Of a stretch of DNA of 64,000 bases, positions 461 to 2,479 are shown in pieces. The notes beneath the pieces are model-generated. The model was given only the letters and a program-made list of their open reading frames with translations, had not been told where the DNA came from and did not search any database. The DNA is taken from contig NC_017278.1 of the NCBI RefSeq assembly GCF_000236585.1, positions 1,550,001-1,614,000 on the forward strand, given 5' to 3'. How positions within the stretch are numbered: the first letter of the stretch is position 1; each line of letters starts with the position of its first letter. The position numbers were made by a program, and so were the translations under genes. Origin of the DNA: Thermus sp. CCB_US3_UF1. GTDB taxonomy: Bacteria; Deinococcota; Deinococci; Deinococcales; Thermaceae.

Positions 461-1248
461 CGCAAGGCCCGCAGGTACCCGAGGAGAAGGGCCTCGGAAA
501 GCTCCCCCAGGTGCCGGGCCACCAGCCGCCCCTCTCGGTCAAAGAAGTAGGTGGTGGGCAGGCCCTGGACCCCCAAGGCCTCGGAAAGCCGGCCCTCCGG
601 GTCCAGGAGGACCCACTCCGGGGCCAGCCGCTCGGCCTCCAGGAAGCCCCGCACCACCGCCGGACCCTCCCCCTGGCTCACAAAGGCAAAGCGCACCTCG
701 GGGTTTTCCTGGCTCACCCGCACCATCATGGGCAGTTCGCGGCGGCACGGGGGGCACCAGGTGGCCCAGGTGTTGAGGACCAGGGGCTTGCCCTGGAAGT
801 CCCATAGGCGCACCGGCGTACCCCCCAAGGAGGCCAGGGTGAGGTCGGGAAGCCTCGTCTCCTGGGCCGCCCCGCCCCGGGTGAAAAGAACCCCCGCCAA
901 GAGCCCAGCCGCCAGGGCCGCCACCCCGGCGTAGCGCCAAAGCCGCTTGGGCAGTACCATCAGCGTGTACCCTCCTGCCGTTAGGATACCCCAGACCGGG
1001 TCAAACCCCCCTTGCCAGACGTAGAGGACGGAAAGGGGGTCCTTGGCAAACACCCCCAGGTTCTCCAAGACAAACCCCAGCCGCGCCCCCAGAAGGCCCA
1101 CCCCCACCGCGCCATGGGCCCAGGGGGAAAGCCTCCGGTCCACCCTCCGGGCCAAGACCTCGGCCACCCCCACCAGGGCCAAAAGGGCCAGGGCCACCTG
1201 GACCCTGACCCAGGGAAGGACGAAAGGACCCAGCTCCAAGGCCTCCAT
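457..1248 (-). CDS. Membrane-anchored TlpA-type thiol-disulfide protein with Lgt-like N-terminus
   Basis: 263 residues. Residues about 1-125 are hydrophobic with several membrane segments and resemble the first half of prolipoprotein diacylglyceryl transferase (GARLGFVLEN, then DPLSVLYVWQGG). Residues about 130-263 are a redoxin fold with TWATWCPPC, cysteines at 165 and 168, and the cis-proline region GLPTTYFF, as in TlpA/ResA. The redox domain should face the periplasm. Its ATG shares one base with the TGA of the upstream rhodanese gene, so it is the third gene of the oxidoreductase-rhodanese operon. It may reduce or persulfidate exported thiols. The Lgt-like part is too short for a working transferase and is the odd feature. 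Confidence 0.85.
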   Translation of the reverse strand: MEALELGPFVLPWVRVQVALALLALVGVAEVLARRVDRRLSPWAHGAVGVGLLGARLGFVLENLGVFAKDPLSVLYVWQGGFDPVWGILTAGGYTLMVLPKRLWRYAGVAALAAGLLAGVLFTRGGAAQETRLPDLTLASLGGTPVRLWDFQGKPLVLNTWATWCPPCRRELPMMVRVSQENPEVRFAFVSQGEGPAVVRGFLEAERLAPEWVLLDPEGRLSEALGVQGLPTTYFFDREGRLVARHLGELSEALLLGYLRALR

Positions 1249-1619
1249 CAGCGGACCAGGGAGAAGCCCGCCCGCTCTATGGCCAATACCCCGCCTTCCA
1301 CGTGGTAGAGGTTGGTGTAGCCCTTCTTCTTCAGATACTCCGCCGCCTGGCGGCTGCGGTTGCCGCTACGGCAGTAGAGGTAAACGGGCTTGTCCTTGGG
1401 CAACTGGTCAGCCCACTGGGCGATGGCCTCCACCGGGAGGTTGATGGCCCCCGGGACGTGTCCTTGGGCAAACTCCGCAGGGGTGCGCACGTCCACCACC
1501 ACCGCCTCCGACCCCAGGGCCCCGTAGAGGGCCTGGGGGGTCACGTCCTGGTAGCTCCCCTTGGGCCCGCAGGCGAAGAGGAGGAGGGGGAGAAGGGCGA
1601 GGAGGGCGCGGCGGGTCAT
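1248..1619 (-). CDS. Rhodanese-domain lipoprotein
   Basis: 123 residues. The N-terminus is a lipoprotein signal: basic start, leucine-rich core and lipobox LLFAC with Cys17. A single rhodanese domain follows, with VVDVRTPAEF, GHVPGAINLP and the active-site loop YCRSGNRS carrying Cys83, the residue that would hold the persulfide. It should be tethered outside the cytoplasmic membrane and move sulfane sulfur. It sits 2 bases after the disulfide oxidoreductase gene and overlaps the TlpA-like gene by one base, so the three are very likely one transcript. Confidence 0.9.
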   Translation of the reverse strand: MTRRALLALLPLLLFACGPKGSYQDVTPQALYGALGSEAVVVDVRTPAEFAQGHVPGAINLPVEAIAQWADQLPKDKPVYLYCRSGNRSRQAAEYLKKKGYTNLYHVEGGVLAIERAGFSLVR

Positions 1620-2324: not shown

Positions 2325-2342
2325 ATACCCCCGTAGGGGTAC
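2325..2342. promoter_or_regulatory. Candidate CsoR/CstR-family operator, minus-strand operon
   Basis: ATACCCCCGTAGGGGTAC has arms TACCCC and GGGGTA separated by 4 bases. It lies just downstream of the TATAGT -10 of the disulfide oxidoreductase operon and upstream of its likely start. Palindromes of this kind are bound by the copper or persulfide sensors CsoR and CstR. The regulator assignment is inferred from pattern and neighbouring genes. Confidence 0.5.
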
Positions 2343-2353
2343 ATCCTTTCCCT

Positions 2354-2359
2354 ACTATA
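2354..2359 (-). promoter_or_regulatory. -10 box of the disulfide oxidoreductase operon
   Basis: TATAGT on the minus strand, about 12 bases before the candidate operator and 42 before the chosen start. No good -35 is visible. Confidence 0.5.
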
Positions 2360-2410
2360 GCAGAGGAGGTTTCGGACAGATAGAGAAGGGACTCACTATG
2401 GAACGGCCCG

Positions 2411-2439
2411 TTGACACCCCTACCCCCATGGGGTATATT
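2411..2439 (+). promoter_or_regulatory. Promoter of the CstB-like operon
   Basis: TTGACA (2411-2416), a 17-base spacer, then TATATT (2434-2439): the best sigma-70 type promoter in the window. Transcription would start near 2446, giving a leader of about 34 bases with GGAGGTG before the ATG at 2480. Confidence 0.8.
2421..2435. promoter_or_regulatory. Candidate CsoR/CstR-family operator inside the CstB-like promoter
   Basis: TACCCCCATGGGGTA fills most of the space between the -35 and -10 boxes and shares two bases with the -10, so a bound repressor would block RNA polymerase. It has the same TACCCC and GGGGTA arms as the palindrome at 2325-2342, here spaced by 3 bases. Confidence 0.55.
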
Positions 2440-2479
2440 GACCCCGTGGGGACAAAGGTCCCATCCTGGAGGTGAAGCC

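Follow-up and report, generated by a model that had tools for sequence, protein, structure and literature searches.

Two palindromes on the facing promoters of a divergent persulfide locus in a Thermus chromosome are probably operators of a CsoR-family repressor of both arms, most likely the orthologue of TTHA1953, the proven two-cysteine (C39, C68) Sox-pathway repressor of T. thermophilus HB8 (PMC10318464); we infer binding, repression, signal and joint control. The window, that is, the whole stretch of DNA analyzed, is 64 kb long (G000:C2:1550001-1614000). Judged by their sequence, the palindromes are CsoR-family type 2 operators, a class in which two short G/C tracts with 2-4 bases between them are flanked by TAC/GTA inverted repeats, commonly as TAC-X9-GTA, and for which the S. 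lividans (Streptomyces) CsoR consensus is ATATACCCCTNAGGGGTATAT (PMC3902906). Site 2 fits the TAC-X9-GTA geometry exactly and site 1, with TAC-X10-GTA, is one base longer. The initial annotation of this DNA had claimed a CsoR-family form for both palindromes, which agrees with the published type 2 geometry, but it made no mention of the one-base-pair difference between the two sites, which is conserved.

Two operons diverge here across ~170 bp, a cstB arm running rightward and a disulfide-oxidoreductase arm running leftward (Table 1), and our literature search turned up nothing published on this divergon in Thermus. Pfam, NCBIfam and PDB matches show a CstB-rhodanese-TauE operon under site 2, the CstB-like operon of the initial annotation, and a thiol-redox operon under site 1. 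The CstB-like protein is composed of a metallo-beta-lactamase (persulfide dioxygenase) domain, a rhodanese-like domain and a rhodanese domain with the motif HCVGGDRS, and it is matched over nearly its full length by PDB 3r2u and 3tp9 (3r2u over residues 1-460, E 5e-105), the former of which we take to be S. aureus CstB. The domain order and near full-length alignment that define the CstB family are thus both present.

Table 1. Coordinates in the window of the genes, palindromes and predicted promoter elements of the divergent locus
Feature	Position	Strand	Remarks
TlpA/ResA-like thiol-disulfide protein, membrane-anchored, 263 aa	457..1248	-	Pfam Redoxin/AhpC-TSA
Single-domain rhodanese, 123 aa, apparent lipoprotein-type signal	1248..1619	-	Pfam PF00581
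Protein disulfide oxidoreductase (glutaredoxin/thioredoxin-like), 229 aa	1622..2311	-	NCBIfam TIGR02187, 249 bits vs cut-off 185; PDB 1a8l
Site 1, operator-like palindrome, 16 bp	2326..2341	.	TACCCCCGTAGGGGTA = TACCCC-CGTA-GGGGTA (TAC-X10-GTA)
-10 element TATAGT, predicted facing promoter	2354..2359	-	extended type TGCTATAGT; columns 94% identical
-35 element TTGACA, predicted cstB promoter	2411..2416	+	5/6 columns fully conserved
Site 2, operator-like palindrome, 15 bp	2421..2435	.	TACCCCCATGGGGTA = TACCCC-CAT-GGGGTA (TAC-X9-GTA)
-10 element TATATT, predicted cstB promoter	2434..2439	+	17 bp past -35; overlaps the final 2 bp of site 2
Third conserved inverted repeat GGGAC-AAAG-GTCCC	2449..2462	.	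~+3 to +17 of predicted cstB transcript; arms 98% identical in Thermus
CstB-like protein, 478 aa	2480..3916	+	Pfam PF00753 and two PF00581 stretches
Two-domain rhodanese, 219 aa	3944..4603	+	Pfam PF00581 twice
TauE/SafE sulfite exporter family membrane protein, 250 aa	4600..5352	+	Pfam PF01925

Both promoters, with their start sites, are predictions from the sequence, and relative to them the palindromes lie where the initial annotation had placed them, one within the cstB -35/-10 region and one just past the facing -10. In the near-consensus cstB promoter (TTGACA-17-TATATT), site 2 occupies the 17-bp spacer, and 44 bp separate its end from the cstB ATG (2480). Site 1 covers ~+6 to +21 of the predicted minus-strand transcript and is followed there by the ribosome site and the ATG (2311) of the protein-disulfide-oxidoreductase gene. 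Placement at a (predicted) promoter such that binding would repress, characteristic of type 2 operators, is seen at both sites.

The locus is at least partly present in all 27 Thermus genomes searched, and both sites are intact in 24 of the 26 loci with a readable intergenic region, so the conservation in related Thermus on which the initial annotation had staked its reading was found. Site 2 retains TACCC-N5-GGGTA in every one of these 26 loci; the 16-bp form of site 1 is lost only in two loci, L032 and, from a fragmentary assembly, L034. The nearest sister genus (G049, L206) carries both sites as well, at 16 bp and 15 bp, and the difference in spacing (X10 against X9) is itself conserved. 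Averaged over columns, identity to the reference amounts to 0.99 in the arms of site 1 and 1.00 in those of site 2, compared with 0.54 for the other intergenic bases. The distance between the site centers ranges from 90.5 to 118.5 bp across loci with no helical phasing, which makes independent sites likelier than a DNA loop between sites 1 and 2, and we disfavor looping on these grounds. One locus (L035, genome G010) is peculiar in that cstB is reduced to ~48 codons and the frames of the following rhodanese and TauE genes are broken, while its operators and promoters are undamaged; SoxY, too, is undetectable in G010, a state that looks like recent loss of sulfur-oxidation genes.

Chance is a poor source for such a pair. 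In shuffled windows a mean of 0.02 exact palindrome matches is expected, and none of 100 shuffles reached two. Pattern matching over the whole genome gave six exact copies against one for a reversed control pattern; of the four copies outside the locus, three fall in apparent coding frames and one is intergenic, in a 46-bp gap between codirectional bioY-like and smpB-like genes. A single palindrome is accordingly weak evidence, since there are six copies genome-wide against one for the control and the other four are mostly in coding frames. Unlike a single copy, however, a pair within 110 bp on facing promoters, conserved genus-wide, is remarkable. The search for further copies suggested by the initial annotation thus yielded six exact ones but gave no indication of a wider regulon: we rejected that extension because three of the four additional copies are coding and because matches to the relaxed patterns TACCC-N5,6-GGGTA and TACC-N6..9-GGTA are not above the reversed control. 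For the same reasons, the strict motif singles out this locus alone.

The genome contains exactly two CsoR-family genes (L001 and L002), both outside the window, in agreement with the statement in the initial annotation that no such regulator is encoded within it. A search of the genome for a CsoR-family gene with two thiol cysteines, also proposed there, found one, L001, which is the TTHA1953 orthologue (G000:C2:8464-8700); it adjoins dnaX, possesses Cys39 and Cys68 and has Phe where CsoR has a copper-site histidine. L002 is the copper CsoR (TTHA1719 orthologue), adjoins copZ and has the Cys-His-His pattern. The TTHA1953 orthologue was found in 26 of the 27 Thermus genomes; the remaining assembly is 65% complete. 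In a tree of Thermaceae members, which should be taken with care because the proteins are short, three clades appear, namely CsoR, CstR-like and TTHA1953, with the last two as sisters (95/87). Members of the CstR-like clade occur in Meiothermus, Calidithermus and their relatives, but no protein of that clade was found in the 27 Thermus genomes or in G049, in which only the CsoR and TTHA1953 clades appear. The earlier proposal of a regulator of CsoR/CstR type therefore stands in part. A two-cysteine CsoR-family protein without the copper-site histidine exists (L001), and the target genes of a CstR regulon (CstB-type PDO, rhodanese, TauE) are in place, but no regulator of the CstR clade was found. 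In several Meiothermus and Calidithermus loci cstR lies ~220 bp ahead of cstB, and almost all of these CstR-bearing relatives have two similar 15-bp boxes flanking the -35 of cstB; because the same boxes occur with an adjacent cstR in these relatives, this kind of operator is older than Thermus and goes together with a CstR elsewhere. The cstR-cstB regions of Meiothermus taiwanensis (L080), Calidithermus chliarophilus (L081) and Meiothermus hypogaeus (L083) are nearly alike, at 99.7-100% identity upstream and 99.6-99.7% in cstB, a likeness that suggests recent horizontal transfer of a putative sulfur island including its own regulator. Some Meiothermus-type genomes (L237 in G031, L260 in G035 and L255 in G032) have additional TTHA1953-related paralogues lacking one or both sensor cysteines, and these are possible divergent sensors.

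A fitting CsoR-family motif does not by itself name the protein that binds it. In HB8 it is the reduced form of TTHA1953 that binds DNA, affinity being lost once the disulfide forms, and the published REPSA consensus of TTHA1953 is the 20-bp TACNNTACNNNNGTANNGTA (PMC10318464). By our own reading, this consensus decomposes into two TAC-X9-GTA units offset by 5 bp (positions 1-15 and 6-20). A TAC-X9-GTA element, in this genome TACCCAGGCGGTGTA, is conserved in Thermus sox promoters, where a fixed pattern found it in 20 loci; it is likely the site bound by TTHA1953 in HB8, and in L266 it extends to TACCCTGGCGGTGTACCGTA, with 10 of the 12 fixed positions of the TTHA1953 consensus. The unit shared by the consensus and the sox promoters is found in site 2 and not in site 1, and neither site is among the genomic matches to the full 20-bp consensus with three or fewer mismatches. 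The decomposition suggests how such a target could have escaped the published motif search, its 20-bp consensus being two overlapping family-standard 15-bp sites. Other published findings speak against the fit: the validated TTHA1953 sites have no G/C run over three bases; a site with a C4 tract in the TTHA0653/4 promoter, which may or may not correspond to this locus, was unprotected by TTHA1953; a one-base spacing change in the REPSA context, comparable to the X10 of site 1, cut binding 10-15 fold; and NaHS failed to release TTHA1953 from DNA (PMC10318464). By analogy, NaHS is a poor proxy for persulfide, because elemental sulfur and polysulfide act on the CstR-like YrkD of Bacillus licheniformis, whereas NaHS does not (PMC9918477).

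Two side observations concern putative TTHA1953 sites. In Thermus, a highly conserved block, GGTACAAATGTCCTTGGGTGTACCCAGGCGGTGTA, overlaps the -10 and start site predicted for the sox operon (L275, L266-L288) and includes a TAC-X9-GTA unit and a GGTACA..TGTACC repeat. A match to the TTHA1953 consensus with one mismatch (TACTCTACCGGGGTTAGGTA, L148 position 1501) lies just upstream of a gene for a small secreted protein in this genome and is a candidate further target.

It is conceivable that a regulator from outside the CsoR family, so far unrecognized, uses the palindromes in Thermus, given that no published Thermus CsoR-family consensus fits both sites exactly and that the CstR clade of the sister genera is missing. 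We consider this unlikely, however, because the motif is a canonical CsoR-family operator and related genera pair such boxes with an adjacent CsoR-family gene; an unsystematic look for a candidate of another family found none.

Alternatively, one could envision the copper sensor CsoR (L002) binding the palindromes, with the divergon responding to copper or to other thiophilic metals, by which sulfane sulfur pools are disturbed as well. L002 is the other CsoR-family protein in the genome, and proteins of this family bind G/C-tract palindromes (PMC3902906). However, copZ-csoR promoters with a locatable operator have CCCACCCC..GGGGTGGG with no TAC-X9/10-GTA, and the TtCsoR (TTHA1719) operator core, CCCCACCCC-N-GGGGTGGGG, is present at copZ promoters and absent from sites 1 and 2. 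In addition, helix 1 of CsoR reads RLLSAKGHLEG, as opposed to the RLxR-EGQ common to TTHA1953, CstR and S. lividans CsoR, and TtCsoR did not bind the TTHA1953 consensus (PMC10318464). Finally, one genome (G005, 99% complete) has the two-cysteine protein only, with no detectable CsoR, yet retains both sites (L030). Control by copper CsoR is thus improbable, and the TTHA1953 orthologue is favored over it because of the G005 genome, because copper CsoR promoters have another motif and its helix 1 differs, and because the TTHA1953 consensus consists of TAC-X9-GTA units and the sox promoters carry a conserved TAC-X9-GTA element.

A further reading is that only one site works as an operator in Thermus, the other being a relic of the lost CstR, and the one-base-pair difference in spacing, the missing CstR clade and the damage to site 1 in L032 and L034 could all be taken in its favor; but across nearly all Thermus genomes and in G049 each site retains its arms and its particular spacing, which is unexpected of a relic and makes this quite improbable. 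Least probable is that the palindromes are RNA hairpins at transcript 5' ends acting on stability or translation rather than DNA operators: site 1 does lie in the predicted disulfide-oxidoreductase 5' leader, where it would form a C(UACG)G hairpin in this genome, and the GGGAC..GTCCC repeat is also near a predicted 5' end, but site 2 lies between -35 and -10, upstream of the predicted start and hence not in RNA, which largely refutes the hairpin for that site, both boxes in Meiothermus are upstream of the start, and the loop of site 1 varies while its TACCC/GGGTA arms are fixed, so that we rejected a hairpin at site 1 as the main explanation.

If control is indeed by the TTHA1953 orthologue, the reduced protein would bind sites 1 and 2 and shut both arms of the divergon. 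At site 2 it would cover the core promoter of cstB and exclude RNA polymerase, and at site 1, just downstream of the facing start, it would block initiation or clearance. Persulfide or polysulfide (sulfane sulfur) would then modify or link Cys39 and Cys68, causing TTHA1953 to leave the DNA and permitting synthesis of the dioxygenase, rhodaneses, exporter and thiol-redox proteins, which would lower sulfane sulfur and close the loop. The left arm would be expected to open before the right if X10 is the weaker of the two spacings. We can go further only tentatively, to a possible though rather doubtful history in which Thermus lost CstR and kept its operators, and the paralogue TTHA1953 took over as an unlinked thiol switch for both Sox and persulfide detoxification, with the X10/X9 difference grading the response so that the disulfide-oxidoreductase arm precedes CstB. 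Control of the divergon by TTHA1953 would enlarge the regulon of the only characterized Thermus Sox repressor to include persulfide detoxification, would supply a candidate physiological inducer for TTHA1953, and would clearly illustrate how operators can persist after the loss of the regulator they first served, with a paralogue in its place.

Operators of two-cysteine CsoR-family proteins on PDO-rhodanese-TauE genes are already known from Staphylococcus, Streptomyces and Bacillus; the twist in Thermus is an unlinked candidate regulator from the sister clade of CstR. The S. aureus cst operon comprises cstR, tauE, cstA, cstB and sqr (PMC5480029). The Thermus locus resembles it in having genes for a CstB-type dioxygenase-rhodanese, a rhodanese and TauE and, as we infer here, in two-cysteine repressor logic, but differs in that it has no linked regulator, no CstR-clade protein was found in Thermus, there is no sqr in the operon and genes for a protein disulfide oxidoreductase, a rhodanese lipoprotein and a TlpA-like protein make up the facing arm. 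The TTHA1953 system of HB8 has in common with the Thermus locus studied here the orthologue with Cys39/Cys68 beside dnaX, the TAC-X9-GTA unit (at site 2) and sulfur genes as targets; its published targets, however, are Sox and cytochrome genes, without long G/C tracts, and the divergon is not among them (PMC10318464). In Streptomyces coelicolor, ScCsoR, a two-cysteine CsoR-like repressor released by polysulfide, acts on PDO, rhodanese and sulfite transporter genes through two ATACC-n6-GGTAT sites at -48 and -9 (PMC7533328). Paired palindromes at the PDO promoter region and the PDO-rhodanese-TauE content are shared with Thermus, but there the spacing is X8 instead of X9/X10, the regulator gene is linked and the pair serves one promoter instead of two facing ones. 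The YrkD cluster of B. licheniformis is similar in that a CstR-like repressor with two binding regions controls PDO, rhodanese and TauE genes, and different in that the repressor's own gene heads the cluster and NreBC adds sulfide control (PMC9918477). The copZ-csoR-copA operator of T. thermophilus CsoR (TTHA1719) is likewise a G/C-tract palindrome of the CsoR family; it differs in having no TAC-X9/10-GTA and in serving a protein with a Cys-His-His copper site and another helix-1 motif.

No known RNA elements were found in the 64-kb window. The third inverted repeat, GGGAC-N4-GTCCC (2449-2462), was absent from the initial annotation and is conserved like the operators within Thermus; it is present too in G049 and in a Truepera MAG (L085). 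Its variants comprise two G-T wobbles and two broken pairs, and it could form a hairpin or be bound by a second regulator.
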